From Crossaster papposus (lineage: Eukaryota; Echinodermata; Asteroidea; Velatida; Solasteridae): a DNA stretch of 64,000 bases. The stretch covers positions 811,501-875,500 of the forward strand of contig JBAIAA010000444.1 in assembly GCA_037893245.1 (NCBI GenBank). Direction: 5' to 3'. Below are positions 12,359 to 59,500 of this stretch, piece after piece. The position numbers were made by a program, and so were the translations under genes. Position 1 is the first letter of the stretch. Each line of letters starts with the position of its first letter. The notes under the pieces are model-generated. The model searched no databases, was not told the origin of the DNA, and saw only the letters and a program-made list of their open reading frames with translations.

Positions 12359-13113
12359 TAATTCATCAGAAATAGTCAGAACTAATAGGTCCACCAGATA
12401 CAGACTCTGAAGTTACGAAACCATATTTTCGCCTTAACAATTGTTGATACTGCGGCAAAAACAGGGTTTTGTATGACCAGCAAAGTTTCCATTAAAAGCT
12501 CAGAAATCTGCGAATAAATTGATACTTTGAGAAATGCACTCCTTGAATTATTTCCTAATACATGTAGATTAAAAGATTTGTGTGGCGTGAATATTTAGTT
12601 ACAGGATTGTTTGGTTGAGGTCAGTCACCCACTTTAACTCTGCGGAAAAAAATACAGCTCCAATTCCGCCTCATCGCTATTCTTAAAAGCAAACATGTCT
12701 GTGTTTGAAATATAATTTCCACGGTTTAATTTAATTAGAGTTTCTGACGTCAGGCTGTGTACAATAATTGCATTTTGCCCAAGCAGTTTCTAGCGCTAAG
12801 TGCTTGAACAAATGTAATATATGTTATGTCTGGTGGAGTTGGTTAACGTAGCCTTCTTTGTGATGGTATTAATCGTGTAACTGACTGTCCTTGGCATAGG
12901 AGAATTACGTAGATGGCCATTTACACGTGGCACATCCATTAGCAGATTAAAGGTTTTTGAAATGGTGGCTTTCAAGAATTATGGACATTTCCAAGACACT
13001 TTGGAAGAAAATTTCAAATTTGCAAGTGCAAAGAACACACGGAGGTTTACAGTTTTAAACATTATTTATTTACAGGTCAGCTGCTGTACCGTAAACACAT
13101 CAAAACCTTTAAA
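12359..13113. other. No gene or repeat recognised
   Basis: Ordinary AT-rich sequence between a MITE and a minisatellite. Nothing supported. Confidence 0.4.
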
Positions 13114-13331
13114 GGTAGGACACACCATTGGTAATTGCTTGAATTATCAGGAATGGTTGGATGTAAATGTAGGACACATTATTGGTAACTGCTTGAATAC
13201 ATGAGTGGGTGAATGTAAAGGTAGGATACACCATTGGTAATTGCTTGAATTATAAGGAATGGGTGGATGTAAAGGTAGGATACACCATTGGTAATTGCTT
13301 GAATTATCAGGAATGTGTGGATGTAAATGTA
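13114..13331 (+). repeat. 54-bp minisatellite, about four units
   Basis: Unit starts at 13114, 13168, 13220 and 13274 (periods 54, 52, 54). The consensus contains GGTAGGATACACCATTGGT then AATTGCTTGAATTATCAGG. It is the same unit as the array at 15955-16107. The unit is a multiple of three and reads open on plus (GNCLNYQEW), but small indels and stops make coding unlikely. Confidence 0.85.
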
Positions 13332-15954: not shown

Positions 15955-16107
15955 TGTAGGATACACCATTTGCTTGAATTATCAGGAATGGGTGGATGTA
16001 AAGGTAGGATACACCATTGGTAATTGCTTGAATTATCAGGAATGGGTGGATGTAAAGGTAGGATACACCATTGGTAATTGCTTGAATTATCAGGAATGGG
16101 TGGATTT
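15955..16107 (+). repeat. Second array of the 54-bp minisatellite, about three units
   Basis: Unit starts at 15955, 16003 and 16057; the first unit has a 6-bp deletion and the others are 54 bp. Same consensus and orientation as the array 2.7 kb upstream. Confidence 0.85.
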
Positions 16108-16870: not shown

Positions 16871-19800
16871 TACCCAGGGGGCAAAACCCTGATTTTGAGG
16901 GTTTTGAGACATGGGATGTTGTAAAAGGTCGGTTGGTATGAACGTATTCAGGAGACCTTCGTTCACAATTTCTAGGTGGACTACCTTGACAATATTTTGC
17001 TGGAAAAAAATGGCGGCAATTTTTTCAAAATGGCCGCCATGAAAAACCAATTTTCAATAATTGGATGATAATCTTAGAACAGAATATTATTGTATCATGT
17101 ATGTGGTATCATATGAAAGGAAATTAAATTATCTACAACATGGTACCACAATTATGATGATTGAATTTACTTTAAATGTCCATTTTGGGCCAAAAATGTG
17201 ATTTTTTGTTTAAAATTCCAAAAATATGAATTGCGCTAAAATGCATATTTCTCAACAATTCAAAAACCCTTGTAACTGAAGACTTGAAAATACCCAGAAA
17301 ACTTGCCGGATATTAGTTTAATATGATCTGAAAATTACAGGTTTATTGCTGTCATGAACAAAAAGTTATAGCGTAGCAAAGTTCACACTTTGATATTTTG
17401 CCTTTTGGACAATATGCATAGGTCAGTTCCATAATACGCTTAACGTGCGTCGGCATTGCGGCATGGCATATGTGACAAGTCCCGTGCAACTGGAACGCGA
17501 ATTCCCATCTTGCATTCTATCTTTTTCTTGATGATTGAAGGGATAGTGAACAGGGAAGGGTTGGGCTGGGTGATGGGGGAGGCACAAATAACCCCCCCCC
17601 CCCCCCCCCCATTTTTAAGCCCTTCGTTTTGAGGGAATTTCTAAATTAGTATTATCTTTCAAATCCCGTTGGAATTTAACCTTTTCATTAGTTTGGCATG
17701 CAAATGGGACATAACACCTTTAAGTAACATTTTAAAATTAGATCTATATCAAATATGAAAACAGTGTAACTATTATTAAAATGATACCCCCCCCCCCCCC
17801 CCCCCCTCTATATCTTAGGTTCCTACAGCAAGATGAGTAAGCAGCCAAGCAAACGTGTGGCAGATAGTGCCATGTCCCTGAAGCATGTGCCTGCTAAGAA
17901 GTCTTCCAAAGATATGAGCACTGACTACACAAAATGCATCATATGCCAACAAGAGTCTTTGATGAGTCTATACTTCATCCAGTTAACAACGTATTCAAAG
18001 CTTATACAAGCCATGTTCGCTCGGCAAGATGAAGTGTTTAATAGAATTCACACCGAGTCAGCATCAGAAACCTGGTTGGAGGAAAATGCACCAAGGTGGC
18101 ATGCAAAATGTCGTAACTGGTACATACATGAGAAAGGCTACCAATGTGCTGAAAAGAAACGTCTTGCTGATAACCTGAGTACAGTAGGTGAGTCTAATGC
18201 AGGATGCAGCTCATCGCAGTCGGAGCAACCTGTCAAGTTAACCCGTCAGAACACTGATAGTTTTGAAGCTAAGAAGACATGTGTGATTTGCAATAAGAAG
18301 TGGCTAAAGGGAAAGGAGCCAGTGTGTAAGGTATCAACAAAGAACAGTCAAATGTCAATTGAGGAGAGGGCAAGGAAGCTGGGCAGAGATGACATATTAC
18401 AGAGGCTGATTGGGCAGGGACATGATATGATTGCCAATGATATAACCTATCATTCAACATGTATGAACAAATTTAAGGCTCTTCGCATTCATTCTGGTCG
18501 GCCAAAATTAAACCCTTATGATGTTGCATTCAGCCGACTAGTAGATGAGCTGGAAGCTCCTCTTTTCCACGATCCATCCGGATTCCTCGTAGAATCACTC
18601 CGCGATAGGTACCGAGACATTCTTATGGAGCTTGGTGTCGATAAAGGAAATCAATACCGGGCGACTGTCTTGAAACAGAAGTTACAGGATCACTATGGGT
18701 CACGTATTTCAGTCCTCGATCAAACAAAAGGTTCAGGATTTATTTGTGCTTCCACAGTACCTCTTGGTGACGCACTGGATAAACTGAGGCGCCTAGAAGG
18801 AGACGATATCGATGAAAAACACCATACACTTCTGCAAGCATCCAAGATTCTCAGAGCAGATTGTGAAAAGTGTAAGAAAGAGAATCGTGAGAAAAATTCA
18901 ACTGAGATTTCCTTCACATCTGCATACAACATGGTTCCAGACTCGCTCTTCAACTTCTCAGCAATGCTGCTCAAAGACCATGTACCAGAATTGAGTGAAG
19001 GAGGTAAAGTTCATGTAGACCAGGCAACAGCAGAAAAGGCTATCATCATGTCACAGTATGTGCTACAGCATGTATTTGGCATACCCACACCTCTGGGAAT
19101 TTCCACTGCATACTACATATTTAATCAGACACGAAGCAAATCACAAGTAGTGATGAACAACCGAACGGGCATGGGGATCAGTTATGAACGTCTCCATCGG
19201 CAACTGACAGCACAGAGTGTGCAGGCCATGCAGCAGGTTGAAACTGATGGTGTTTACATCCCAGAGACAATGGCAAAAAACAGTGAAATTCCCCATGTGT
19301 TTGCCATGGACAATCTGGACTGGAAGAAGAAAACACTTGAAGGTGGGAGTTTCAATGCTACTACTGCAATCGTCATTGAAAACCAGGAGTTGGAGAGGGC
19401 CCAAGAAGGCACTAGACTGCGTACTTCCACGTCAGACAGAAGAAAAACTCTCTTTGATGTTGAAGACCTACCTCCTTCTACATGCCATATCTCAGCTAGA
19501 GACAGGCAGACATCTAGGTCACTTCAATGCATAGAGAAACTGGAGAGTCTAATGACTTCTTCAGATGGCCAGGCTGAGGATGTTTTGCTTATGTGGCGCC
19601 TCGGTAGAATGATCACTACTTCGCAACTGTTGGATGCTCCTCCAGATTTAGGAGCAGGACTTCCAGGCTTTTCTGCGTTCTGTGCTGACCTCCACCCACA
19701 TAGACAGGCGAGCATCATTGGCTACCTTCCTCTGATCCCATCCTCTCCAACCAACCCTACTATACTAAAGGAAATGATGATTCGACTTGTCAAGACATCA

Positions 19801-22800
19801 CGTGCACTTGGCGACAAATACACAATTATCACTGGAGATCAGGCTACATATGAGCTCGCCGTAGCTATCAGAGACAAGCATCGTAATGAGTTCAGCAATG
19901 TGGTCTTACTGCTGGGTGGCTTTCATCAAGCTCACAACTACATCAAAGCAGTTTGCAAGATCGTCAGGGAGGCAGGTGCAGAAGATCTTCTTGTTGCAGC
20001 TGGTCTATGCCAGGAAGGGACTGCCAAGAAGATGTTTGGTGAGAAAGCTGAATACTACCAGACCATACATGCCCTCAGAATCCTAAGCGAAGCTATATGG
20101 CGCCTCTACTGGGAAGCATTTGAGACATGGGCAGCAGACAGAGCAACAGATCACTGGCAGCCTCAGGTGGAATCTGTCTTGAAGATGCTCTTTGAAAAAG
20201 ACATCACTGCTACTGAAAAGTTGCAAATGCTTCGGAATTCCCATGAACAGCTATCAGCCCTGCGGGAACAGATGATGCTTTTCCAAGAATCAATGGTTGA
20301 GCAGCCAACAGCAATCCTATGGTCCACCTTCCTGATTATGTCAGATGTTCTCCATAGATTTATCTACTACCAGCGAGAAGCTGACTGGGTAGGACACCTC
20401 TGTGAATCATATCGAATGCTACCTTACCTCACAGCAGCAGGGCATTACAAATATGGGCAGCAGTCTCTCCCACTCTATCTTGATGAGATGAAGAAACTTC
20501 CTGAAACAGCCCCTGATGTACATGAAGCACTTTTGGCGGGTGCATTTGTTGGACGGAGAGCAGATGGCAAGCACAATTGTGTTTCTCCTGACATGCTTCT
20601 TGAACAGACTTACAATGCCGATGCCAAGGAAGCTAGCGGTCTTGACGGAATTACACTAAACCCCGCCGCACGGATGAAATGGGTTTACACTAAACCCATC
20701 ACTGCATCTGTCTCTGCACAGTTGAAATCAATGCTGCATCTTCATTCACCCAGCCCTCACCATGAATCTGGTGCATGTCGAGTAACAAGGGATGCAGAGA
20801 TGGTCATCAAGGTAATGGCAGCAGTCGAGACGAATCCATTCAGTGCAACCACGACATCCCTGATAAATGTGGCAACTGGGCAATGTGCTGATTGCAAAGT
20901 TAAGGACAACTTGACCAGTGTTAAACAAATAGGCCTGGATGCACTCTCTAAGTCACTGTCCAGTCTTCAGAAGAAGACAAGTATTGTGAAGCTGAACACG
21001 TTCCACACACAAAACAAGAAACAAAAGAAGTCTGCGCCCCAAACAGCTAAACCGGGGAAGAGTAATGAAGTAACTGCTCTTCTGCGAATGACACAGATCA
21101 TTGCTAGTGGTGGAGAACTAGACATTGTTGACTTCATAGGGAACCACGAATGCAATGAATACCCACCGTCTCTCTTTCAAGATGATGGCAGAATGAGAAA
21201 AGGTACCAAATCAAGCCTCGTGAAAACCCTGAAAGAGGTGACCAAAGTTACCAGCACGCCTGATCTGCCCCAACATGACAGAAAGACAGCAGTAGTCATT
21301 GATGCCATGTGTGCCATCCGACATTGGTCTTTCAACAAAGGCGAACGATTTGGAACCATTGCTGAACGATACAAATACCTGCTACTGAATGATGTGCCTG
21401 CTGGTACGGAGTTCATACACTTCTGCTGTGACAGGTACAGCGGACCAAGCTTGAAGTCTGCTGAGCAAGAGCACAGGTATGCCCGATCTAAACCTGCCCG
21501 GGAATATGAAGTCAGTGACCATTACACAGCTCCTGATCCACAGGAATTCTTTGCAGTGGCTGCAAACAAGGCTAATCTCCAAAACTATCTATGCGAGAAA
21601 TGGTGTGAGAATAAGCATCTGGATGACAATGTAGGCCCAACCCATCTCTATCTGGGTGGTGGATTCACAGAAGAGACTAAGACTGTATTGATCACAAGAG
21701 AGTCTGTTATGGATGTTCCAGCTCTTGAATCGACTCAGAAGGAGGCTGATACAAGGGTAATTCTGCACACCCTATACAGTGTCCAAAATGACAAAGTTGA
21801 AAGGGTAGTCATCCATGCCAATGACACAGATATTATTATCACGTGTCTACACTATGGAGCGACATACCTGAAAGATCTACCAGAACTATGGATAAGGACA
21901 GCCAAGGACTCATACTTGCCGATCCATGAAATGGTGGTAGCACTGGGAGCTTCACCGTGTCGTGCAATGCCCTTCATCCATAGCCTGAGTGGCAGAGATA
22001 CTACCAGTTATCCATACTTCACCGGCAAGAAGGCATGGTTCAAGCGCAGCTTGAGTCTTGACATACCCACGATTGAACAGTTTAGTGAGAACCCAGCTGA
22101 CGTTGTATCCGGAGACCTAATCAAGGAGGCAAGGGCCATCACGACTGCTGTTTACACCTCAGCAAGTGATGACTTCAATGAGTCTGATCTAGGCAAAATC
22201 AGGGCATACAAGTTTTTGAACAACAGATCTACTCTCCTAAGGCTCCTGCCCCCCACAGAGGATGCATTTCTTCTACATGTAAAGAGAGCTGCCCTTGCGA
22301 CGATGATAGATAAGACAGCACACATTGCCAAGCCTCAAATCCCTGCCTGGACAGAATTTGGGTGGAATCTGGATGGTCAGCACGTGCTTCCTGTTCCAAG
22401 TACCCATCAAGCCTGGCCCGTTTCGATGAAGAAGGCTATATCATGCGGATGTACTAAAGGGTGCAAGAAGAACTGCTCATGTGCCAAGACGGAAATACCA
22501 TGCTACATAGGGTGCCGTTGCCAAGGACTATCAAGCAAATGTAGCAGGGTGCAGGAGATCGAATGTGACATCGGAGCAGCGAATATCAGTGACAGTAGCA
22601 GCGACTCAGAAAGTGATTAAGAAAGAAAAACAGTGATGTCGGAAATGAAGAATAGTCGCTTTAAATGCAACTACGATATACATTTGGAGTAGTAAAACTT
22701 GTATTCTGTAATAACATGAACCAATTGTTTATTTTGTATTTTCTATTTATTTTTTTAACAATTTCAAACTTTCCAGAGGGGAACAAGCCACACACACAAA

Positions 22801-23582
22801 AAATAGAGGGACCGCCCCCCCCCCCCCCCCCCCTTCCCCTACCCCCTTCGCAACTCCTGCAAATACTGATTGCACAGTTATTATGTAGAAATGGGAAACA
22901 AATCTAAAGAAAGAGATAGAATGCTCAAAATTAATGTTTCACTTGCAAAAAACCTTCAAACCCTACAGCAAGATGGCAACACATGTGCGCATATTTTGCG
23001 TACATAGCATACATGTACTTGTAATATAGCCTGTGCGTATTGTAAAAAAACGTTGTATTAGTGAACATCAATATGTGAACTTTGGAGCACTATAACTTTT
23101 TTGTTAGGAAAGCAATAAAGCTGTACTTTTCAGGTCATATTAAACTGATGTTGGGACAGTTTTCAGCAATTTATCGATTCTTCATTTTTTCAATTTGTAT
23201 TGAGATATAGGAAATATGTATTTGAGCAAAATTATTTTTGTGAGAAAAAAAGTAAAAAAATCACATTTCGGGCAACAAATTATGAAGTATTATGACTTAA
23301 AACCATATAAATGTGGTATCATCTTGTAGGAAATTTAATTACCTTTCATATGATACCAAACATAAGGTAAAATGAGGTTCTGTTAAAAAATTATCGTTAA
23401 TTTAATTTAAACTTTTTTTTTATGGCGGCCATTTTGAAAAAAATGGCCGCCATTTTTTTCCAGCAGCATATTTTCGAGGTAGTCCACCTGTAAATTGTTA
23501 AGGGAGTTCCTCTGAACAGTTTGATACCCAACAACCTTTTACAACATTCCATGTCTCAATAACCTGTCTTGCCCCCTGGGTA
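16871..23582. mobile_element. Complete 6.7 kb DNA transposon with long inverted arms (possibly Academ-like)
   Basis: The ends TACCCAGGGGGCAA and TTGCCCCCTGGGTA are inverted copies. Inverted homology continues inward for about 170 bases strongly (GAGACATGG, GTTGTAAAAGGT, AGGTGGACTACC, AAAATGGCGGC) and, more diverged, to about 530 bases (16871-17400 with 23050-23582). The flanks are AAT on both sides (16868-16870, 23583-23585), a 3-bp target duplication. One long ORF fills the middle. Short duplication, 5' TA terminus and a PIN/XPG-like nuclease signature fit the Academ group as I know it, but no database comparison was possible. Confidence 0.8.
17833..22620 (+). CDS. 1595-residue transposon protein with zinc knuckles, PIN/XPG-like nuclease signature and C-terminal CXC motif
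   Basis: One uninterrupted exon, with its ATG just after a C run. Cys-rich N terminus: CIICQQ with a later Cys/His pair (about residues 37-100), then CVICNKKW with YHSTCMNKF (about 150-215). The middle has DNLDWKK (D493) and TGDQATYE (D669) followed by LLGGFH, which could include acidic catalytic residues of a transposase fold. Nuclease-like signature: VIDAMCAI (about 1155), EADTRVILH (about 1302), HANDTDIIITC (about 1327) and HSLSGRDTTSY (about 1382), the ADTR/DTD pattern common in PIN/FEN1/XPG-like proteins of metazoan transposons. C-terminal CXC motif CGCTKGCKKNCSC at 1537 may bind DNA. It probably cuts and moves the surrounding element. No stop or frameshift is seen, so recent activity is plausible. 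Exact superfamily is inference. Confidence 0.75.
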   Translation: MSKQPSKRVADSAMSLKHVPAKKSSKDMSTDYTKCIICQQESLMSLYFIQLTTYSKLIQAMFARQDEVFNRIHTESASETWLEENAPRWHAKCRNWYIHEKGYQCAEKKRLADNLSTVGESNAGCSSSQSEQPVKLTRQNTDSFEAKKTCVICNKKWLKGKEPVCKVSTKNSQMSIEERARKLGRDDILQRLIGQGHDMIANDITYHSTCMNKFKALRIHSGRPKLNPYDVAFSRLVDELEAPLFHDPSGFLVESLRDRYRDILMELGVDKGNQYRATVLKQKLQDHYGSRISVLDQTKGSGFICASTVPLGDALDKLRRLEGDDIDEKHHTLLQASKILRADCEKCKKENREKNSTEISFTSAYNMVPDSLFNFSAMLLKDHVPELSEGGKVHVDQATAEKAIIMSQYVLQHVFGIPTPLGISTAYYIFNQTRSKSQVVMNNRTGMGISYERLHRQLTAQSVQAMQQVETDGVYIPETMAKNSEIPHVFAMDNLDWKKKTLEGGSFNATTAIVIENQELERAQEGTRLRTSTSDRRKTLFDVEDLPPSTCHISARDRQTSRSLQCIEKLESLMTSSDGQAEDVLLMWRLGRMITTSQLLDAPPDLGAGLPGFSAFCADLHPHRQASIIGYLPLIPSSPTNPTILKEMMIRLVKTSRALGDKYTIITGDQATYELAVAIRDKHRNEFSNVVLLLGGFHQAHNYIKAVCKIVREAGAEDLLVAAGLCQEGTAKKMFGEKAEYYQTIHALRILSEAIWRLYWEAFETWAADRATDHWQPQVESVLKMLFEKDITATEKLQMLRNSHEQLSALREQMMLFQESMVEQPTAILWSTFLIMSDVLHRFIYYQREADWVGHLCESYRMLPYLTAAGHYKYGQQSLPLYLDEMKKLPETAPDVHEALLAGAFVGRRADGKHNCVSPDMLLEQTYNADAKEASGLDGITLNPAARMKWVYTKPITASVSAQLKSMLHLHSPSPHHESGACRVTRDAEMVIKVMAAVETNPFSATTTSLINVATGQCADCKVKDNLTSVKQIGLDALSKSLSSLQKKTSIVKLNTFHTQNKKQKKSAPQTAKPGKSNEVTALLRMTQIIASGGELDIVDFIGNHECNEYPPSLFQDDGRMRKGTKSSLVKTLKEVTKVTSTPDLPQHDRKTAVVIDAMCAIRHWSFNKGERFGTIAERYKYLLLNDVPAGTEFIHFCCDRYSGPSLKSAEQEHRYARSKPAREYEVSDHYTAPDPQEFFAVAANKANLQNYLCEKWCENKHLDDNVGPTHLYLGGGFTEETKTVLITRESVMDVPALESTQKEADTRVILHTLYSVQNDKVERVVIHANDTDIIITCLHYGATYLKDLPELWIRTAKDSYLPIHEMVVALGASPCRAMPFIHSLSGRDTTSYPYFTGKKAWFKRSLSLDIPTIEQFSENPADVVSGDLIKEARAITTAVYTSASDDFNESDLGKIRAYKFLNNRSTLLRLLPPTEDAFLLHVKRAALATMIDKTAHIAKPQIPAWTEFGWNLDGQHVLPVPSTHQAWPVSMKKAISCGCTKGCKKNCSCAKTEIPCYIGCRCQGLSSKCSRVQEIECDIGAANISDSSSDSESD

Positions 23583-25771: not shown

Positions 25772-28644
25772 CTATCGGTTTTCGTGACACAACGTTACAA
25801 GCAAAATGTTTGATTGCAATGTCGCATGGTGATACACCTGGTAATACATCTTGACTGAGTTGTAGTCAGCCACTGCCAGCTGCCCATCTGATGTGAATGT
25901 GATTCCTTGGGGCAAGTACAGACCCTGTGCAATGCACTTGAGAAAGCCACCTTGAGGGTCATAGTGGTGGATATGGCCCGTGTTATTAGCAGTATGCATT
26001 GCAACATAGATGCCTGAGCTATCAGTGTACACACCGTTGCAGCGCTGTACTGGTTGACCATTGATGGTGGGTTTGATGGTGCGCCGTGTAGTACCATTGC
26101 CATTGGCAACATTTACTGTCTGTGACGATGAACTGATGACAATTCTATCATTGCTGTCTACAGCCAGATAGTAAGGTTTAACCTTGACTAGTATGGTACG
26201 TAGGAGCTCACCATCAGTGGGGCTGTGTTCAGTCAACACCAGCCTCTCGACATCACCTACTACGATGGTACCATCATTCTTGACAGCTACACTCGAGAGG
26301 TTAACTGCGGTCTTACCGACCTCACTCGGCGGCATTGTTGGGAACTCGTAGGCCAGCGTGTTGTCGCTGTTGAACACCTTCACATGGGATGCGCCTTCCT
26401 CGACGACCACCAAACGATTGTTGGTGGGTGTAGCTGCGATGCGGTTTGGACCTTTAGGAGTCATGATGTCAAAACAAACGACATTATGCAGATATTGGAC
26501 AATCCTGGAAAACTGCATTAGAAAATAATGTCTGTCAATGAATACATTGTTAATGTTTGGTATACACGCTTGAGAAATCACCGCGTCTTATAATTCATTT
26601 TGCATGATCTTGTTATGTTTGGTGTTTATCTATTTTATGCCCCAGATTGTGGGGCATAAAATGCTTCACTGTGATTTATCTTTCTTTGTGAATAATGGGC
26701 GATATGCCAACGAGTGATAAACATACACTCCAAAATCACTTTTTATACACTTTCTGTATATGTTTACATGCAAAACATGTTCAGTCATTGAACATTGATG
26801 TTCATTTGACACGGGTGTTTAGCTGCTAAACATGTGAACTGTTACTGTTCGTAAATACAGGTTTTTGAGAGTAAACCCGCTTATACCGATGTTTACGCAC
26901 AAATATTTCTTGCATAAAATCCACAGTATTTTTCTCTGTAACTATCAGATGTAATTTTCGTGGACTTCCCATCTTTTGCAAAGAGCATCGGAAATAAAGC
27001 AAATCAAATTTTTATTTTTGGTTTGTATACTTTTGACATTTTGCTTTCTGTTTTAAATTTAAAGTTTCAATGGGGTTTTATTGAAAAAGAAATAAAAAAA
27101 AATATTTCTTAGCTTTCATCTATTTTTATGTAAATTTTTTTAAAGCTTTTTTCTAATATTTTAAAAATAAAACTCAATCTGGCCTCCTTAAGGCTGTAAA
27201 GCTTTTATTTCTGAAATAAACCAACCAATAATAATAACAATAAAATAATAATAATATTTACTTGTTTTATTTAATAAAAAAAGTATTAGTGAAAACCGAA
27301 GGCAAATTGTTTGTGCATAATTTCGCAGATGGCATGTATTTTTAACTTACATCCTTGCATCGGGATTGTGCTTTTCTGGTTGCCATCGATGCCGCAGATC
27401 ACAACTCGTTTGTTGCCGTAGTCAGTCACTGCAATCTCATCAGGTTGACGAGCAGCAATGCCCCAAGCCCCATAGAACTCTCCTGGACCGCTTCCCCCTC
27501 TACCAAACTCACCACACAGCTCCCACTGGCCCTCCGTCACCACCACCTCACCCAGATTGATGTCACCAACCTCCTCACTCTCCTTGAACTTCAGAAATGC
27601 CGGCCTGTCATCAACTCTAGGAATAGCCTGACCGGCCAACAGTTTCAAGTCTTTGCTGATGGTAGAATAGAGTGACAGGAAGTCACTATCCGATGCAGTC
27701 CTTATCACCTCTCTAGCTGTATCTAGTGAAAACTGCAACCTCTCCACAGCCAAGCTCGTGGTTTTCTCACATTCTTCCAGTCTTTGCTCACGATCTGTTT
27801 GGATGTTTTTGATGTCGTCAAGGATGCGATTTTCCTGAGCCGTTACCTCTGCTCGTATCTTAGCTGCTCTGTCTTGCACTTCTGTCGTGACCCTCTTGGC
27901 TGTGACACTCAAATCTTCTTTCAGTCTTGAGGCTTTCTCTTGTGATTTCTTCAGTTCTTTTAAGGCGTTTTCAAGTGGAGAAATCAGTTCACCCAACGAC
28001 TCCTTGTATGTTGATGTTGCTAGATTTTTGTCAATATACACATGTTCTGGCATACGGTGGTCGAGGACGGTACAATCTCGGCAGATGAGCACTTCACATG
28101 TGGTACAAAAGAACCACCCTTCGCCCTCATGGATCGGACATTTGGGATGTTGTTTCGGATGTTTCTTTTTCAGGGTAACTTTTCCCTCTCGAATGTCCTT
28201 CAGTGGAGTCACCTTGTGGTTAGATGTTGCTGCGAATCGAAGATGCATTTTGCTACAGGCTGAGCACACATTCTGGTCGCAGTCCAGACATCTATGTGTT
28301 GCCTCATTGGCTTTCTCACAAATACCACACAAAATACCAGCATCACCCAAGCTCACTACCTTCTCCTGAAGTTCAATCTCCTCAACCAAACCGATTAGAT
28401 GAAAGTTGGTTTTCAGACCCTGCACCCCCGCCTCTGGAAGTTTCGTCTCCTGTCGACACACGGGGCAAGGAATCTCCGTACAGCCCTGGTGCTTCGTGCT
28501 GTAGTATTACAGCAAACATTGCTCACAGAAACTGTGCAGGCATTCTAATATCTTTGGCTGTTGATATCTCTCTTGACATACGCAGCACTCAAGATGTCTG
28601 CCAATCGTCTCTAGAGCTGAACTTACTACCGGTCCAGTTGCCAT
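25772..28644 (-). pseudogene. TRIM-type RING/B-box/coiled-coil/NHL gene, copy A, with a stop codon in the RING
   Basis: Two exons: 28644-27351 and 26451-25772, joined by GT/AG (GTAAGT donor; phase 1), 658 codons in frame from ATG to stop. Order: RING (CCVCQERY, CLHSFCEQC, CPVC), two B-boxes (CGICEKANEATHRC; CPIHEGEGWFFC, CRDC, DH), a coiled coil of about 100 residues (LKELKKSQEKASRLKED), then an NHL-like beta-propeller (NSDNTLAYEF, GHIHHYDPQGG, YLPQGITF, GQLAVADYNSVKMYY). Such proteins are E3 ubiquitin ligases; the propeller binds partners or RNA. A TAA at 28509-28507 replaces codon 46, right after CEQCLL, so a full product needs readthrough, a later start or a sequencing error. Everything else is open. 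A 12-bp intron spanning the stop is too short to be real. Its paralog in block B is much more damaged. Confidence 0.75.
26632..26662. repeat. Perfect 13-bp stem hairpin in the TRIM gene intron
   Basis: ATTTTATGCCCCA, loop GATTG, TGGGGCATAAAAT. The identical hairpin occurs at 42089-42119 in block B although neighbouring intron sequence has diverged. Confidence 0.8.
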
Positions 28645-39152: not shown

Positions 39153-41562
39153 GAGGTTTACGTAAGTTTACAAAAGCAATTATTACTATTTGTAGCATAA
39201 GTATTTATGCCTGCGTTTTTTTTTGTTTTTTTTGTTTTGTGTGTGTTAGTTTGGGGTTATATTTGGCTGTTGGAACATATCAGAAAAACAGTGGCCCTTT
39301 ACGACAACACTTTTTGTGAAAGACGCAGACCACACTCTAAAATAACTCCTGGGTCAGATTGACCCAGAATTTGCATCCAAATTTGCACAGTCATTTAACG
39401 CCTTTTTTTCGGGTTAAATTTACTTTTTTTCTAGGTAAATTTGATCCCAAAAAGCTTTCTATTTGACCAGCAATATGACTGAGCAAATGTGGATGCAGAT
39501 TATGGGTCACTCTGACCCAGGAATTTAAATTATTTTATACAATTCCAAGATGGCTGCTGCAGTCGGCAGTCGGTTTTGTAAAAAACAAAAATGAATTCTT
39601 GTTTTCATAGGTCAACTCGGCATTTCCAATCTTCATAATTACAGGTCATCACTCTGGCAGTTAAAATTAAAGCTGGAAGTCTAAATTCATTTATTGTAAT
39701 ATTTTACATCCATAACAGATTGATTTATATGTTTATTATTATTCATTGATTTATATATAGGCCTATAAACAAAAACGCTTCTAAATGTATCATTCATCCA
39801 TACATTCGGTTCGAAAGAAAGCGATTCGCTGATATAAGAGCTTTCACCAGTAATTTTAAGGTGAAACATATTTACTATCGGTTTTCGTGACACAACGTTA
39901 AAAGCAGCATGTTTGATTGCAATGTCGCATCACACCTGGTGATACATCTTGACTGAATTGCTGTCAGCCACTGCCAGCTGCCCATCTGATATGAATGTGA
40001 TTCCGTTGGGATAGTACAGACCCTGTGCAATGCACTTGAGAAAGCCATCTTGAGGGTCATAGTGGTGGATATGACCCGTGTTATTAGTACCATTATTCAT
40101 TGCAACATAGATACTTGAGCTATCAGTGCACACACCTTTGCAGTGCTCTACTGGTTGACCATTGATGATGGGTTTGATGATGCGCCGTGTAGTACCATTG
40201 TCATCAGCAACCCCCCTAAACAAATCTCGAGAAGATTGAGAAGATCTCGGCGTTGGGGCTTCGCGCCTCCTGCGCTCCCATATCTTCTCCCAATATATTA
40301 TGTTGACAATTTTTGGCGCCCCCTCTAACCGAAATTCCTGGATCCGCCCCTGTTATCCCTATACATTATACACACTCAACACTATTGTTACCTAACACAT
40401 CCCCCATTGAAACCTAAAAAGAATATCCCCGAGATTCCGGGAACACAATGGTCAACACAAAAGAGGGGAGGGGGGGTTCTCTGCCACATGTCGTGCTTCA
40501 TATGGAGGTTTACGTAAGTTTACAAAAGCAATTATTACTATTTGTAGCATAAGTATTTATGCCTGCGTTTTTTTTTGTTTTTTTTGTTTTGTGTGTGTTA
40601 GTTTGGGGTTATATTTGGCTGTTGGAACATATCAGAAAAACAGTGGCCCTTTACGACAACACTTTTTGTGAAAGACGCAGACCACACTCTAAAATAACTC
40701 CTGGGTCAGATTGACCCAGAATTTGCATCCAAATTTGCACAGTCATTTAACGCCTTTTTTTCGGGTTAAATTTACTTTTTTTCTAGGTAAATTTGATCCC
40801 AAAAAGCTTTCTATTTGACCAGCAATATGACTGAGCAAATGTGGATGCAGATTATGGGTCACTCTGACCCAGGAATTTAAATTATTTTATACAATTCCAA
40901 GATGGCTGCTGCAGTCGGCAGTCGGTTTTGTAAAAAACAAAAATGAATTCTTGTTTTCATAGGTCAACTCGGCATTTCCAATCTTCATAATTACAGGTCA
41001 TCACTCTGGCAGTTAAAATTAAAGCTGGAAGTCTAAATTCATTTATTGTAATATTTTACATCCATAACAGATTGATTTATATGTTTATTATTATTCATTG
41101 ATTTATATATAGGCCTATAAACAAAAACGCTTCTAAATGTATCATTCATCCATACATTCGGTTCGAAAGAAAGCGATTCGCTGATATAAGAGCTTTCACC
41201 AGTAATTTTAAGGTGAAACATATTTACTATCGGTTTTCGTGACACAACGTTAAAAGCAGCATGTTTGATTGCAATGTCGCATCACACCTGGTGATACATC
41301 TTGACTGAATTGCTGTCAGCCACTGCCAGCTGCCCATCTGATATGAATGTGATTCCGTTGGGATAGTACAGACCCTGTGCAATGCACTTGAGAAAGCCAT
41401 CTTGAGGGTCATAGTGGTGGATATGACCCGTGTTATTAGTACCATTATTCATTGCAACATAGATACTTGAGCTATCAGTGCACACACCTTTGCAGTGCTC
41501 TACTGGTTGACCATTGATGATGGGTTTGATGATGCGCCGTGTAGTACCATTGTCATCAGCAA
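38859..41562. repeat. 1352-bp tandem duplication, apparently identical copies
   Basis: 38859-40210 and 40211-41562 read the same wherever compared, including every short ORF. The unit runs from the C run of the nested MITE to the middle of the NHL exon. The junction at 40210/40211 fuses GTCATCAGCAA of the exon to CCCCCCTAAAC of the MITE. Confidence 0.9.
39930..40210 (-). pseudogene. Duplicated 3' fragment of the NHL exon
   Basis: Identical to 41282-41562. It encodes the last propeller repeats (GHIHHYDPQDG, YYPNGITF, GQLAVADSNSVKMYHQV, stop) and then breaks into MITE sequence at 40211. Non-functional by-product of the 1352-bp duplication. Confidence 0.85.
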
Positions 41563-44173
41563 CAATTACTGTCTGTGACCCTGAACTGATGACAATTCTA
41601 TCATTGCTGTCTACAGCCAGATAGTAAGGTTTAACCTTGACTGGTATGGTACGTAGGAGCTCACCATCAGTGGGGCTGTGTTCAGTCAACACCAGCCTCT
41701 TGACATCACCTACTACGATGGTACCATCATTCTTGACAGCTACACCGCAGAGGTTAACTGCGGTCTTACCGACCTCACTCGGTGGCACTGTTGGGAACTC
41801 GTAGGCCAGCGTGTTGTCGCTGTTGAACACCTTCACATGGGACGGGTCGTCCTCGAGGACGACCACCAAACGATTATTGGTGCGTGTAGCTGCGATGTCG
41901 CATGGACCTGTAAGAGTCATGATGTCAAAACAAACGACATTATGCAGTTATTGCACAATCTTTTCAATACAAACAATCTTGAAAGAGTGAAAACTGCAGT
42001 AGAAACATGTCTGTACATGTATACACGCTTGAGAAATCACCGCGTCTTATAATTCATTTTGCATGATCTTGTTGTTTGGTATTTATCTATTTTATGCCCC
42101 AGATTGTGGGGCATAAAATGCTTCACTGTGATTTATCTTTCTTTGTGAAAAATGGGCGATATGCCAACGAGTGATAAACATACACTGCAAAAACTGTTCA
42201 GCGAGTAAGCACTTTTCTAAACACTTTCTTGCTATCATTTTGTATGTTCACATGCTAAACAAGTTTAGCATGTGGATTGTACGCAGGATTTTGTATTGGG
42301 GGGGGGGGGGGGGGTGCGAATTTGTACTAATGGGACCAAAACTTGAACCAAACATTTCCTGGCCAGTACCGTTATTTCTACATACAAAAAACAATTTTTT
42401 TACCCTGGAAAATGTGGACCTTTTGGTAATTTAGGGGGTTAATTTGTACTGATTGGACCAAAAATGGAACCAAAATTGTTCGTGTGCCTGTGATCAGTAC
42501 AGTTATTTCTACATCAAAATACCATTATGAAAAAATGTGGACCTTTTAACCCTAACCCTACCTAATGCTACTTGTTACTATTAGTAGTAAAAAGTAGTAT
42601 GCAGTCACTGACTTGTGTGCAATGCCTGTAGTAATTGTTAGTATTTGGTACTTCACCCCTTATTGCACTCATAGTACTTTTTAGCATTGGGTCACTCTGC
42701 TTGCTGAGTGTGCATGGCACATGTATGCTGTGTAAGGTGTTCTAAACTCTACAGCAAAAATTGTCACTTGGGACACAATGGGTCAAGGCTGGACTACTGC
42801 ATTTTTTGCCAGGTAAGTATTACTGACCTGTATTGCCACTATTAGTATTTTGTAGTTGGCAGTATGTCATGGAGAGACCCAATGCTACAAAATACTAAGT
42901 AGTATTCTGTAGTACACAGTTCTTTAGCCAAAGTATGGCCTAGGGGGTTAGGGTTAATTAACGGGGTGCGTATGTTTTCTATAGCCTCTCGTTTTCTATA
43001 GCTTTTTAGGCAAACCTTAAGGTCTGCATATGGTGCAATTTAATGTAACTGAATTATTTCATTGTTACATATTTTATTTTGCCTGAGAATTTATCTAATA
43101 AATAAAATAAACAAATTGAACATTGATGTTTATTGGACACCGGTGTTTAGCTGCTAAACAAGTTTGCTGATTATGTCAACTGTTACCAAAAAAGCCGTTT
43201 ACTTAGTAAATTATACAGTAAACATACCATTGTTGATGCAAAAACATTTCCTAAAATCCAAGGTATTATTGTGTTGTTTTTCTCTGTAACTATCAGATGA
43301 ATTTTTGTTGGACTTCCCGTCTTTTTCAAAGAGCTTCAGGAATAAAGCAAATCAAATTTCCATTTTTGGTTTGTCTACTTTTGACATATTGTTTTCTGTT
43401 TGAAATTCACAGTTTCAATGATGTTTTATTTATTTTTGATTTATTAAAAAGTATTAGTGAAGACCGAAGGCAAATTGTGCATAATTGCATAATTTCGCAG
43501 ATGGCTTGTAATTTTAACTTACATCTTTGCATCGGGATTGTGCTTTTCTGGTTGCCATCGATGCTGCAGATTACAACTCGTTTGTTGCTGTAGTCAGTCA
43601 CTGCAATCTCATCAGGTTGACGAGCAGCAATGCCCCAAGCCCCATAGAACTCTCCTGGACCGCTTCCCCGTCTACCAAACTCCCCACACAGCTCCCACTT
43701 GCCTTCCGTCACCACCACCACCTCACCCAGATTGATGTCACCAACCCCCCCACTCTGCTTGAACTTCAGAAATGCCAGCCTGTCGTCAACTCTAGGAATA
43801 GCCTGGCCAGCCAATAGTTTCAAGTCTTTGCTGATTGTAGGATAGAGTGACAGGAAGTCACTATCCGATGCAGTCCTTATCACCTCTCTAGCTGTATCTA
43901 GTGAAAACTGAAACCTCTCTACAGCCAAGCTCGCGGTTTTCTCGCATTCTTCCAGTTTTTGCTCACGATCCGTTTGGATGTTTTGGATGTCATCAAGGAT
44001 GCGATTCTCCTGAGCCGTTACCTCTGCTCGTATCTTAGCTGCTCTGTCTTGCACTTCTGTCGTGACCCTCTTGGCTGTGACACTCAAATCTTCTTTCAGT
44101 CTTGAGGCTTTCTCTTGTGATTTCTGCAGTTCTTTTATGGCGTTTTCAAGTGGAGAAAACAGTTCACCCAACG
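41282..44173 (-). pseudogene. TRIM-type NHL gene, copy B, 5'-deleted
   Basis: The remnant of exon 1 (about 44173-43523) holds only the coiled coil and linker (IKELQKSQEKASRLKED, GELFSPLEN); the NHL exon is 41907-41282 with acceptor TTACAG. The splice phase matches copy A (donor GTAAGT after GAT). The RING, both B-boxes and the start codon are gone because of a deletion joining CCCAACGA to TGTTAAATTG with a GA microhomology. The NHL exon stays open but ends earlier than in copy A (after KMYHQV). The intron carries a piggyBac-like MITE and G tracts. Confidence 0.8.
42550..42953. mobile_element. piggyBac-like MITE with CCCTAA ends and TTAA target duplication
   Basis: The ends CCCTAACCCTACC and GGGGGTTAGGG are inverted. 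TTAA flanks both sides (42546-42549, 42954-42957). CCC-starting ends plus TTAA are the piggyBac signature. Absent from block A, so it inserted after duplication. The interior has inverted TAGTA-rich words and no coding. Confidence 0.75.
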
Positions 44174-44802
44174 ATGTTAAATTGAGAAAGCACATCATTT
44201 GGCAATTTTTTTTGAGCACAATCGGTGTGTTACTGTAGATACAGGGGGGGGGGGGGGGGCTTAGACCCGTGAACGTGGAGGTATACACCGCCACGATTTG
44301 ATGGATTTTAAACTCTATCTATTTTCCGAGAAAAAAACCCTATGTCCTTTGCAGCAAAATGTTCTTCCCATTTTACTCTTAAGTGATACATATTGCTCTT
44401 CTACACAGCAACTAAAATAGCACCTTTCGTTCCCAAAAATATTGATGAAAAAAAGTTGAGTCCGATACAAAAGTGTTGGCTTTCCCACGTAAAGGATTCA
44501 GGGCACCGTGCAAAGATCTTCCGGCAAAAGTGGCAAACCAAAAAAGCAACACTTTTGTAATGGACTCCACACTTTGTCATCAATTTTTTGGGGAAACGGA
44601 AGGTGCTATTCTTGCGGCTTTTAGTGTAAATCAGCAATGTGTATCACTAAATAATAAAATAGGAAGAAATTTAGGCTGCAAGTGCAAAGGACATACATGT
44701 AGCGTTTTTTATCGAAAAATAGATGTTTGAAATTCATCAAAGCGTGGCGGTGTATACACGTTCAGGGGAGGACATACCCCTAGAACTATGGGGCTCCCGA
44801 CG

Positions 44803-50625: not shown

Positions 50626-53600
50626 ATCTTCAAAGGTCATTTGAGGTCAAGTTCTAAAAAAGCTGAAATTGTAAAATGCGTCTCATTAACCAGTATGCAC
50701 CGGGATTATTGTAACATTCACCGAGCCGAGGTGCGGGATTATTTTTATTGAAACTCGATCCGAGGCGTGTTCAGGCCAATGGTATTGGGAAGCACACCCA
50801 TGCATTTCCGGCCGTTTTGAATCTCGGTAAAAATGTGCATGTATATACACGTCCTTCGGCACGAACTGGTTAAAGAAATTGAGGTCTAATTACAACTTGG
50901 TCATATTCATATTATAGTTGGGACTGAGTTCAAAGGTCATTTGAGGTCAAGTAGGTAAACCGGCTGGAATTGTAAAATTTGTTCCCTTTGAAAGGTTGAG
51001 GTCCAATTGTAATCCAACCTGAGTCAAACATGCAAAAGTGTAACCATTATTCTTGCTCTCTGTTGTTTTTCCTGGCTTTTTCTTCCCTTTTCTTGAGTTT
51101 CTTTCCTTCATGAAGTTCTTTTTTCTTCTTTTTTCTTTTTTTGGTCGTTTCATCCTCGACAACCTTCCCCTCCGTACCTTCAGGTCTTCTTACTGGGACT
51201 ACTGATTTCCCGTAGCGGGATACAAACTCTGCAACCGCAGATTCTTTTCTTGGGCGATCCGTTTGTGCAGTTAGTGGCCCTAACTTTTTGCACAGTACAG
51301 GGTGAGCCTTCCATGCATCCTTGACTTTGTTTTCACACAGAGCAACTGCTTTTTCTAGGATGCGCTTGCTGTAATCTGAAAACGAATTTTTATAAACAGT
51401 TATAACTACATTTGTACTATGCCTCCAGTCTTGTACAGTGCTCCTGGTTTGATAAATTAATCCATTTATGTTTATAACCGGTTAACATACTGTATGTACA
51501 CTGCACTAAAAGCTTGCGGACGCTATAGCCTCCTGTTTCCATTTTGGCCCTTGGAAAAGACACTGCAAAGGCTGGTTTACCACCACGTCGAGCAACCTGC
51601 TCTCTACCGGCATTCTCATTGTAATGAAGCGCGGCAAGGTAGATCCTGTCAAAGGAAAAATATATCAACAAATCCAATATTAAAACGTAATTATATTTAA
51701 CCAAAGCAAATATATCAAAGAACTAGGTAAATGACACAGTCTTACCTACACACCATACCCTCAAAGGAATAGACATACATCTTTGGAGCAAACTGAATTA
51801 TAAGGGAATGGAAAGCCTCCACCGAGGAAGTCTGGATAGAAGGAGATAACATCCTGATATCCTTCTGTATGTAGACACTCTCCAAAATGTCACACAACTT
51901 TTCTGCAGGTTTAGATCCTGTAAGTGTGAATTACAAAGAAATATTCACATACAAATTGTGTTTATTATATTGGTTGTGTATAAAGTTATTGTATGTATCA
52001 TTCATGAGGGAATTTTATGCAGAATAATACAATAATAGTAATAATAGTACTAGATTTGTTTATGTGCAATTCAATTTTTACTGCCAGACATGTTTTTAAT
52101 TAACCATTATTAAAAAATAAGTGAATTGAATTATTTATTTATTACCTGGAGTAAGCCATTTGCGAGGTGTCAAATCGCCATGCACACATTTCGGAAACAG
52201 AATATTCTGATGTTCATGGACATTCATGAGGTGGTTTGATATGCTCTCAAACTTCGCCCACATCAGATCTGGGTCTCCTTCAGGCGTCGAGGCTGCCACC
52301 CAATAAACGTTGTTTATGATCGCTTGCACCCAGTCATGCACAGGTTCACAGCCTTTTGTACGTCCCAGTGCATACAATTTTTTCTTTAGGCCTTGAAAAA
52401 AGTAATATGACATTTCGGTTACTATTCTAAATCATAGCGATGGATGCCATCTGAAGAATAGGAAACCATTCTACAAATATGCAATGTGGTTTCTGAACAA
52501 TCTTGTTGTGTTAATGTAAATTATGGGGGGGGGGGGGGGGGGGGACGGGCTACGGGCTACGGGCTACGGGCTACTTGAGATATTTTATCTCTTCTTTAAT
52601 GCATGTGCATGTACATGTATAATAAAAAAACAACCAAAATCATACGCCAAACTGACCTTTGGCAACATGCCATACATCAAAGTAGTGCGTCAAACCCCGA
52701 GGCGCCAGCTCCTCGCGAATGTATTTCGTGATCTGTTTATGGCGATCTGTTACAATTTTCTCGATGTCCACCTTGTTATCATGAAGCCATTTGACTGTAC
52801 GGACCAGGCCCTCCTTCTCCATCAGTGGAGATTTATACGCGGTCTCGCTTTTCTGTGTAGAAAAACAAAGCCTCCAGAAAATAGACTGACCAAAAAAAAA
52901 ATCAGTTGATCATTGCCGTCAAAATAACACCGACTGATAGAGAATCGGTAGCACAGTTGTTACATTTACCGCACATTTAATTTAATTTTAATGGAGACCT
53001 ACTTGGAGGCAGACGTAGCCAAGTCGAAAGAAATTACAAGGGAAAACATTGACATGTTTTGTGCACCTGTTTTATTCTTTGCGTGATGTATGTCTGCAAC
53101 CCTTTCCCACAACCAGCTAATATTAGAATGCTGGTAAAAATGGAACTGATATGCACATTGGGATTGCTAAATGGATTAGAAACAAAATTGTCATTCAAAC
53201 TAAAACTAAAAAACAAACCTACTTGCACTAGCTCAATATGCAGTACTTTGCCGTAATTAAGTTCGAGCACACTGTAGCAACCATACTTGGCAGTATGCCC
53301 TACTAGTCTGGTTGCCTATGTCATGATAGCATAAGTGAACTGAAATTTTCCTACACTATAAATTTTTGATGTTTTTTTGTAGTTTTGACGCTCAGGAATC
53401 CAAATCAAATTGTTACCATTTTTTCCGATCAGCCGTTTGGCGGCCATCTTGAATTTCAAAATGGCTGCCATTTTCAATCTAGTTTGTACTATATCTCAAC
53501 TTGTGAGTGACATAGAGCTGTGAAATTTGTGGCAATACCCCCCATCTTTATGATACCAAGCTTTCAGTTGAAGCCATAATCAAACTTGTATCAAGTGCCC

Positions 53601-54087
53601 GCCATCTTTAATTTCAAAATGGCCGCCATAGTCACTCTTTTTGCACTATATATACTTGTGCAGGTAATATAGAGCGGGGGAAATTAGAGGCATACTCATT
53701 TTTTATGCTAATCTTTCAGTTTGAATCATAATCACACTCTATCATGTTGTATCAACTTTCATTTTCTATTCCAAGAAGATGGCTGCCATTATGATGCATT
53801 TTAAATAGATCCTCATGAATATATCTAGTATTGATGCAAGTATAACAGTGTCATATATCAGGTTTGCCTGTATATATTTGCTTACATTGATATTCATGTA
53901 TGTACTATGAAATACATTACATTTGCAGGTACTTCCCGGATGGCCCTTATTGGTATCCTTACTTCTTAATATGACCACCTGAGCCCTCCAGAAATGCCAG
54001 GCCGAGATGATAGAGCCTGTCGAAGGGGAACGATTTTCAGCGGACTTGACCGGCTCTCTAACGGCTTCTCGAGTAAAGCTGCAATTG

Positions 54088-56549: not shown

Positions 56550-59500
56550 CAAAATAGAGTGAAATGGCGGCCATTTTGAAATTTCAAGATGGCGGGCACT
56601 TGATACAAGTTTAATAATGGCTTCAACTGAAACCTTGGTATCGTAAACATGGGTATTGCCACTTATTTCACAGCTCTATGTCACCCACAAGTTGAGATAT
56701 AGTACAAACTAAATTGAATATGGCGGCCATTTTGAAATTCAAGATGGCGGAAACTTGATACAAGTTCAATTATGGTTTATACTGAAAGCTTGGTATCATA
56801 AACATGGGTATTGCCACCAATTTCACAGCTCTATGTCACCCACAAGTTTAGATATAATGTAAACTATATTCAAAATGGTAGCCATTTTGAAATTCAAGAT
56901 GGCTGCCAAACGGCTGATCGGAAAAAATGGTAACAATTTGATTTGGATTCCTGAGCGTCAAAACTACAAAAAAACATCAAACATTTCTAGTGTAGGAAAA
57001 TTTTAGTTAAATAACACAAGTAACCATACTATACACTATCAGCTCTCATGTCCATTCCAAGATGAGTTTTTCTGCGATGGGATTTCATATCCGCGATCAA
57101 GTCTTTCTGGTCTTCATTCCAGACATCGACAATAGCTGGCTGTAGAAATCTGTAGCACAAATTGTATTTAAGTTAATTTTTTTTTAAATTGTGTCTGAAA
57201 TCAAACTAGTTTTTTAATCTCAGACAGTCATTATCAATGTGTGTCTCAATCCTGAAGGGCATATTGGGCCACTAGTATTTATTAGTTTCTGCTTGTCAAA
57301 ACGACAATGTATTATCAAGCATACTGTGCACATTACATACCTTCTTTGATAATTAAAGAAGGTTTGGTAGCAGAAGACAGCCATGTTGACACAAGCTAGC
57401 GCTTGTAACACTCTCTTGGTGCATGCTCCAGATAATTCTAAGGCAGCAGCAAGCATCAAATTTCCAGCTGAAGAATTGCCAACCATTGGCTGACTCCTCC
57501 ACTTCCGCCAGTAGCTGCAAGCTCTGACTTGGCAGGTCTGATGCACCTCTACAAGCGTGCCACCAAGTGGTCGACAGGCTTTTCTTTTGGATGGGCCGGC
57601 ACACTTGGGACATCTCTTAAATAGTGCCAGGAGATTGCCTTCGAAGACTATGTACTTCTTGTCCCCAAAAGATGGCTCAGCTTCAAGATCGGAACTAAGA
57701 ATGCACAAAGTAAACAGGAAAAATACCACTAACAAATTGTATTCGATCATACTGCCAAAGACTAAAAGGTAAAATGAAAAACAGGTATGGGCAGGGTGTT
57801 TACATATTAAGGGGACTTAAAAAGGGAATCCAGGGTACAAGCCTGCATAAAGAGTTGTGCAATTTGTGATGATGCCTTTTCTGCATGCTGCATACAGCAA
57901 CAAAATATAGGAATAATATATGACCATTTTAATATGTGAGTATACCTGAAATCAACATCTGAATCTGAGTCAGGCCTGCTGGACGGGGTGTAGTCATCAC
58001 CACTCGACAGTGGCTCAAACTCCACAGACCCCATACTTTCAGCTTCATCCTCCGTGTCTTTTAATTGTTTTGCCTTCCATTTGGTCGGTGCTGCTTCACG
58101 TGCAAACTTCTTCAATGACGGCAGTTTGACAATCTCGCATTGTGTTGCAGTACACTTGTACTGCAATGGCGGCACCTTCAGGGTTTGTGAGGCTATACAA
58201 TTAGAAATGCAGTCAAAGGTGAAATAATTCATAATAAGCAGTCAAATTCAAAATAAACATAACAATCACATATGTCTTGGAAGCTTGGGAATGTCAAGTT
58301 AAGAATTTGCAAAATTACTACCAAATTATAATGCATTACATTACTGGACTGTTGGTGAACGATGGTTTAAAGCATTCTGTAAAATTATGGCACCTGATGT
58401 GTTGTAATTTTCAAGACAAGTGGTATTTTTATATCAATCTCCAATGCTCGTCGGCCGACCAGCGTTAGAGAAAAATTGCTTTTTGGAAATACTACCCCCA
58501 ATTTACTTGCCATGAAAACATAAACAGGCGTGAAAACATAAACGGGCGTGAAAAAAACGAAGTCACATAATTACCTTGAGAGTGTGTAAAATATCGGGGA
58601 TTTGTCTGATTTCGTCTGGACCGCACATGGTACGTTTTTGGTGGTGCACAGGGGTTTATGTCGATTTTAAACACATCTGTTTGTTGCACCAATTCACGAG
58701 AGGCTTGGAGGTGTGGTAACGTCTTCAGAGGGGTCTGCAATTTAACAGCCAGAATACTAATTAATGGCCGTGTAAGTACTAAGCATAATTATATTAAACA
58801 AATATTTCAACAAACACTACATGTAAAAGGGAATTTTCGAAAGGCCTCAGCTGCCCGACTATAAATATTTAAGTTAAACACAGATGCGTGCTTAATCGTA
58901 CAAGTACCATCAACATGCACTATATTGGCCAAATTTGTTATCCTTTTAAGCACATGAAATCGGTACTTACTGGCAGGAACATGGGAGTGCCAGGTGCACT
59001 AACTGTTGCCTCGGAGTCGGATTCAGAACTTGTAGTTGTACTGTGAATGTGGCCATGGTGCTGCCGATAGTCCAAAAGTGCTTCATCCCAGACCTATCAA
59101 AAAAGACAAATAACAGTCCTGATAACCACAGACGTACACATGTACATTATTTACAAAGTCAATCATTAAATATGGAAACTGTTTATTAAGCCAAATAAAT
59201 TATTACCTCGTCCCAGTGCGCATCCTTTTTGCTGCTGCATCAAAACACCCCCTTCCCCCCCTTTTTTTTTTAAACATCGGCCGTTTTCTCCTAAATAAGC
59301 TTGTTCTCTTTTGCAGTCTTCTGAACATAGTGTGCAGGAGTGGAGTCTAGTTATTATGTTGATGCAACACTATAATTCTGCGATGAAGTCTAATTTATAC
59401 ATGTACAAATATTTAAGCCCCCAAAAGTGCCCGCATCCTCTTTTTTCCCCCAACAAGATTAGACGAGAAACTTTTATTTTACCTTAGGCCTACAATAACA

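Follow-up and report, generated by a model that had tools for sequence, protein, structure and literature searches.

The 64,000-nt window analysed here, the whole stretch at positions 811501–875500 of contig C444 in a 1.02-Gb assembly of the sea star Crossaster papposus (C-numbers denote contigs), contains a complete 3,728-bp element at window positions 53304–57031. It has terminal inverted repeats (TIRs; TAGTMTGGTTRC...) within a TAC target site duplication (TSD), and its arms enclose ribosomal DNA (rDNA) running from intergenic spacer through a putative RNA polymerase I (Pol I) promoter and the 5' external transcribed spacer (ETS) into 18S. This window copy is locus L036 in our comparisons of loci, which are denoted by L-numbers. 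Its parts, with the evidence for each, are as follows; the array is the genome's own rDNA, and C401, C802, C877 and C676 hold relatives with matching arms.

53301–53303, no strand: left TSD, TAC (flanking sequence, empty sites, locus-pair comparison)
53304–53983, + strand: left arm, native to the transposon; TIR TAGTCTGGTTGCC... followed by subrepeats that contain TGGCGGCCATCTTGAATTTCAAAATGGCTGCCAT; also in the rDNA-free C401 (97.7%) and C802 (96–97%, interrupted there)
53984–53996, + strand: left junction, about 13 nt of unplaced filler between the arm and recognisable rDNA (comparison with C401)
53997–54420, + strand: rDNA intergenic spacer with 93-bp tandem repeats at 54087–54411 (93-bp repeats also at 2402–2714 of array unit L061)
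54421–54984, + strand: rDNA spacer leading up to the promoter box; its TTTGTACAC motifs at 54660 and 54786 are retained in the array (array comparison)
54985–55001, + strand: GGCTATATATAAGGGGG, putative Pol I core promoter or start site, within a 69-bp block (54933–55001) identical to the array
55002–55940, + strand: 5' ETS, with a single copy of the ~195-bp repeat that the array has three times (array alignment)
55941–56549, + strand: 18S rRNA, first 609 nt, or about 613 with the older junction (Rfam match, array, junction copies)
56550–57031, + strand: right arm, native to the transposon, with 155-bp subrepeats and, at its end, TIR ...AAGTAACCATACTA; this arm also occurs in C401, C802, C877 and C676
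57032–57034, no strand: right TSD, TAC (flanking sequence, empty sites, locus-pair comparison)

The element and its rDNA cargo

The arms contain an inverted pair (53338–53540 and 56806–57008; 203 nt, 94% complementary), and the ends of the element read TAGTMTGG. The 21-nt termini fit the degenerate pattern TAGTNTGGTTRCYTNTGTNAT without mismatch, on the + strand from 53304 and on the − strand from 57031, and no further match occurred in the window with up to three mismatches allowed. This pattern was derived from the element's own two ends; its chance expectation was 0.29 matches, and two were reached in 3/100 shuffles. The original prediction that inverted arms and a TAC duplication bracket an rDNA cargo was borne out by the complementarity of the arms, the fit of the TIRs and three empty sites with a single TAC. 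Open reading frames (ORFs) of at least 150 aa within the element were confined to the G+C-rich rDNA.

A promoter/ETS query located the rDNA arrays of this genome on C1219 and C1107 and showed a spacing of 10.6 kb between neighbouring units. Our array reference, L061 (C1219:7600–14400), and a second array unit from C1107 (L072) were equal at 1708/1708 comparable sites. The cargo follows the order of the array, with spacer repeats, promoter region, ETS and approximately 613 nt of 18S, about its first third. As predicted for spacer repeats, a candidate Pol I promoter, ETS and a truncated 18S, window positions 54087–56179 were collinear with the C1219 array at 90–96% identity. The 18S begins at 55941 and matched the eukaryotic 18S family (Rfam RF01960, 568 bits), the match being drawn to 56982, past the 18S and into the right arm. 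The ETS is G+C-rich (71% over 55001–56000). The prediction of a whole ETS needs correction, as the element has one ~195-bp repeat and the present array three; the cargo, a kind of fossil array, records this ETS change.

Dispersed copies and capture junctions

A search with the 18S/right-arm junction pattern found 41 loci at up to three mismatches, compared to none for a reversed-pattern control, and a separate search showed that C864, C531 and C504:44170 also carry it. The predicted sharing of one breakpoint among rDNA-bearing copies thus extends to 44 loci, haplotype duplicates counted. The genome contained 54 left ends and 48 right ends, with a pattern-search junction within 1.2 kb of 36/48 right ends. 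Left and right ends formed 38 pairs less than 15.5 kb apart, 32 of which enclosed a pattern-search junction, 20 of these at 3.5–3.8 kb; two of the other six (C864, C531) have the junction by the separate search. Three of the 22 locus pairs compared were missing the right terminus. All remaining 19/19 had perfect 3-bp TSDs with 12 different sequences, including CTG, CAT, CAA, TGA and TTC. The target of the window copy was uninterrupted, with a single TAC, at three other sites in the genome, where identity across the joined flanks was 96.7% (669 columns), 99.4% (645) and 99.2% (611). C723/C13 and C468/C19 appeared to be haplotypes of one insertion each, some loci belonged to a duplicated segment, and 30 right-flank stretches fell into 26 groups. 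TIRs with TSDs of fixed length at unrelated sites are what a cut-and-paste TIR DNA transposon leaves.

rDNA is well known for causing misassembly and for giving rise to dispersed pseudogenes, and one could suppose that fragments of it were wrongly joined to a repeat or had inserted next to one; array reads used in polishing could also overwrite the 18S of dispersed copies. We give such an artefact or pseudogene scatter almost no credence given one junction at 41 loci, the TSDs at 19/19 loci, the empty sites, the matching insertions on apparent haplotype contigs, and 38 spacer differences that occur in all sampled element lineages and are absent from the array. Misassembly specifically was rejected on the empty sites, haplotype contigs and TSDs.

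At C468:6258–13668 (L007, L015, L034, L035) one rDNA carrier follows another head to tail; the join between them reads AAGTAACC followed by AGTCTGG, a few end bases having been lost, and resembles a circle junction. On C19, apparently the other haplotype, the same site holds one copy. Two fold-back derivatives with two left arms and the same flanks were also found, at C644:370072–371411 (L020, 1,340 bp) and C343:2444884–2445339 (L024, 456 bp), the longer of which contains an inverted stub of the rDNA cargo.

Both breakpoints could be read against the rDNA-free relative on C401. At the left, C401 reads CACCTGAG and continues as GCCACTATC, while the element reads CACCTGAG and then CCCTCCAGAAATG before rDNA begins; by this comparison the transposon's own left-arm sequence reaches approximately 53983 and recognisable rDNA begins at approximately 53997. 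At the right, C401 has AATGCAAAATAGAGTG, the copies on C185 and C524 have GTATATTAAAATAGAGTG, and the window copy has GTATATCAAAATAGAGTG. The junction of the C185 and C524 copies ends ...GCGTATATTAAAATAGAG, that of C401 ...AATGCAAAATAGAG, and we take the canonical 18S continuation to be TATATTAAAG. Set against this continuation, the C401, C185/C524 and window readings indicate an AAA overlap at the right junction. From the C185/C524 junction and the C401 arm, the 18S probably extends about four bases further than the list gives it, to 56553 (~613 nt). The prediction that the rDNA ends exactly where the arm starts needs adjustment for these four bases and the overlap.

At both breakpoints the arms of rDNA-free relatives run on into other sequence. 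This bears on a composite origin, in which two complete transposons inserted in inverse orientation into one rDNA unit and their outer ends mobilised the block. Transposons are known to pick up cargo by such composite moves, and both arms are long and inverted. However, the left arm stops within sequence that continues in C401 and C802, the right arm begins inside a 155-bp subrepeat, neither inner edge is a terminus, and no complete inner ends were present among the copies read. We consider a composite very improbable.

rDNA-free relatives and the origin of the element

The same arms occurred without rDNA on C401 (8,714 bp, TSD TTA) and C802 (13,961 bp, TSD TAT). Whether every copy with these arms carries rDNA, as the original prediction had asked, is accordingly answered yes for the 44 junction loci and no for such relatives. 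No Pfam family was matched in any of the six frames of the C401 interior. Large ORFs adjoin the matching right arm in C802, in its apparent haplotig C676, and in C877. By eye, the C-terminal part of these partner ORFs has FEN/XPG-like motifs and a cysteine-rich end, and Academ transposases carry an XPG-type nuclease; in Pfam, the partner ORFs gave weak TCR matches (E 0.13–0.56) and no XPG match. The C676 ORF matched PF20231 (DUF6589) at E 6.4e-5 and a 1611-aa ORF in the window (17785–22620) at E 3e-26, with 20% identity over 934 columns and low-complexity and composition corrections off. The window ORF clears the PF20231 cut-off and sits between long inverted repeats, which have the TTTCAAAATGGCCGCCAT motif in common with the arms of the rDNA carrier. 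DUF6589, which we take to be the Academ transposase, was matched at least 112 times in this genome, where 102 of 334 candidates were scored, and not once in 14 control genomes.

The surroundings of that ORF form a large transposon in their own right (window 16872–23582), with ~530-bp diverged inverted repeats (TACCCAGGGGG...), an AAT 3-bp duplication by eye, and the uninterrupted 1611-aa DUF6589 ORF; it perhaps belongs to the same superfamily as the rDNA carrier. Two rDNA-free relatives, L062 (C401) and L027 (C863), contained a piece of a reverse-transcriptase-like ORF that is Penelope-like by eye, with nothing in Pfam for C401. Nested at C802:187637–188319 (L068) is a 683-bp element that has TAGTCTGGTTCCCAGACC ends of its own and may be a miniature inverted-repeat element (MITE) of the same superfamily.

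Several 3-bp TSD groups were candidates for the rDNA carrier. CACTA/EnSpm elements have CACTR ends and PIF/Harbinger elements make TWA duplications only; both were ruled out by the TAGTMTGG ends and by TSDs such as CTG, CAT, CAA, TGA and TTC. piggyBac, which targets TTAA, was rejected on the varied 3-bp TSDs. AcademX elements reportedly produce 3- or 4-bp TSDs and encode a nuclease (PMC10045372). The TSDs found here agree with that description, and the nuclease-like motifs seen by eye in the partner ORF may do so; unlike the AcademX elements described, the rDNA carrier has no transposase gene and has rDNA as cargo. We lean towards placing it in AcademX, with real room for doubt.

Since the arms also exist rDNA-free in elements with broken transposase-like ORFs, rDNA probably replaced the transposase gene once and the product moved in trans. 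One parent copy would have been broken internally, probably in repair after excision, and the gap may have been filled from rDNA by template switching, with the AAA overlap on the right and the short filler on the left. Because the product kept both ends, transposase made elsewhere could have recognised its TIRs and spread it. Host DNA between intact ends, no transposase, and movement after capture also characterise Pack-TYPE elements (Pack-MULEs among them), which are non-autonomous TIR elements with captured host gene fragments; here the captured piece came from the rDNA array and included the promoter region. We are confident that we are dealing with a cut-and-paste DNA transposon that is non-autonomous and probably belongs to the AcademX lineage; one piece of rDNA sits in place of the parent's gene, and the product then probably spread in trans. 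The capture of rDNA promoter region, ETS and 5' 18S by a cut-and-paste transposon had been predicted from the window alone and is supported by the shared breakpoint, the perfect TSDs, the empty sites, and rDNA-free arms beside transposase-like ORFs.

Several points weigh against this reading. Template switching, which we consider likely, is read from one 3-base overlap. An intact partner transposase with these TIRs was not found in the genome, the C802 ORFs being interrupted, and 32 aa of the L066 ORF are missing from L065/L067. The C676 ORF scores 22.3 bits for DUF6589 against a curated cut-off of 27, and the 112 DUF6589 matches, for which 102 of 334 candidates were scored, include none of the ORFs of C802, C676, C877 or the window. 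Pfam scans of the C802 and C877 ORFs gave TCR only (E 0.42 and 0.13) and no DUF6589, and PDB searches had no significant match (best E 0.73). Our literature search found no paper with both ‘DUF6589’ and ‘transposase’ and no DUF6589-Academ link. The AcademX label is based on the 3-bp TSD, motifs by eye and background knowledge of the group, and is likely, not proven.

The literature search, with most subscription papers outside it, found no DNA transposon with a Pol I promoter, ETS and 18S; the nearest systems were Pokey and Cassandra. Pokey (piggyBac superfamily, Daphnia) is a DNA transposon family bearing pieces of host rDNA, namely ~200-bp A repeats of the intergenic spacer (IGS) and a ~48-bp C repeat of the second internal transcribed spacer (ITS2) (PMC3849761). 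The description of the present element as unusual is thus upheld for the combination it carries and tempered by Pokey's spacer pieces. Pokey has putatively active full-length copies, targets TTAA in 28S and elsewhere, and bears short spacer repeats, whereas here there is no transposase, the 3-bp TSDs are variable, and the cargo is one collinear block from promoter to 18S.

How rDNA loci move and why pieces of rDNA become scattered has long been asked; transposons often come under suspicion and are seldom caught in the act. In this one assembly the vehicle can be seen together with the capture junction common to the copies, the breakpoints on both sides, arms free of rDNA and the dispersed products. 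It offers a rare natural test of the scattering of ribosomal gene fragments through a genome.

The putative carried promoter and divergence from the array

The GGCTATATATAAGGGGG block is a putative Pol I core promoter, given the significance we assume for this motif as core promoter or start site. The exact box was kept at 18/30 right-side loci; at the other 12 the region was missing (2) or the box altered (10). The same altered boxes occurred at distinct insertions with different flanks: C186 and C723 share G>T at 54998, and C17 and C251 share an inserted A. Judged from these sequences, copies with altered boxes have thus transposed, and an intact box is not required for movement. The rDNA is most likely passenger cargo.

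Cassandra of plants is described as a non-autonomous mobile element with an rRNA gene promoter (PMC10853983). It resembles the present element in both respects and differs in being a long terminal repeat (LTR) retrotransposon with a 5S promoter that mirrors host 5S genes; here a DNA transposon carries a 45S (Pol I) promoter region whose box is altered in some copies. A working promoter is conceivable by analogy with Cassandra, whose 5S promoter is a Pol III promoter: Pol I transcription or nucleolar recruitment could help the element through open chromatin or nuclear position, and the promoter would be maintained. The identity of the 69-bp block over the putative start site to the array fits this, as does the distribution of private non-CpG changes. 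Their frequency in 18S (26/10631) was about half that of the right arm (41/9241), with p 0.019 in one of several tests; the promoter value (6/2460) was nominally low as well, without reaching significance (p 0.21). These counts omit L034, L037, L039, L041, L046, L048, L053, L054, L058 and L059. On the other side, distinct insertions have altered boxes in common, 12/30 right-side loci are without the exact box, two of them through lack of the region, and the difference in private changes is weak and could be produced by polishing. On balance we doubt that the promoter is working cargo.

It is in our view unlikely that the dispersed copies act as portable Pol I start sites whose promoter recruits Pol I and nucleolar factors, a recruitment that the original prediction had raised, at dozens of sites outside the array, with chimeric ETS-18S-arm transcripts and nucleolar tethering. 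If true, the transposon could seed new rDNA loci through recombination with the array. Near-identical Pol I promoter regions now lie at dozens of unrelated sites, and in some of them the box is altered; this natural experiment could reveal what such a promoter requires outside the nucleolus.

The possibility of sequence exchange with the real rDNA had also been raised, and we found no sign of it. In the spacer, 38/912 comparable sites differed from the array (two identical units) in all element lineages sampled, and in 18S 0/238 sites had a fixed element-array difference (Fisher p 3e-4). Array reads may have overwritten the 18S of dispersed copies in polishing, although private 18S changes nonetheless remain. 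A tree built from 26 element rows plus two array rows, rooted at the midpoint and with unsettled bootstrap values, grouped no element with the array, and L063/L064 and L051 branched first; it mostly restates the shared differences, because the array rows are identical. L051 had nine array-like bases where most copies differ, and since 8/9 recur in L063 and/or L064, these appear from the alignment to be old retained states, not exchange. L041 and L046, with little or no promoter/ETS, were left out from the L051 comparison onward; L039, L048, L053 and L058 were partly masked in that comparison and left out from the fixed-difference count onward.

Recurrent gene conversion with the array could refresh the cargo, as proposed for Pokey A repeats. 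The absence of fixed 18S differences, the somewhat few private 18S changes, and the array-like bases of L051 would fit such conversion; the 38/912 spacer sites that set all sampled element lineages apart, the recurrence of 8/9 L051 bases expected of old states, and the failure of any of the 26 element rows to group with the two array units, identical over 1708 sites, do not. We judge recurrent conversion highly unlikely, and in this the element differs from Pokey, whose repeats are reported to evolve in concert with rDNA. The simplest reading of the alignment is a short element stem with most spacer change on the array side. A foreign rDNA donor (horizontal transfer) was hinted at by spacer divergence beside unchanged 18S; this claim was dropped because rough branch lengths fit an ordinary rDNA branch.

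Elsewhere in the window, two similar B-box/NHL (TRIM-like) coding regions lie on the minus strand at 25772–28506 and 41282–44318, an apparent local duplication for which Pfam was run on the first only. A 54-bp tandem repeat unit occurs at 13110–13331 and again 2.6 kb away at 15970–16105.

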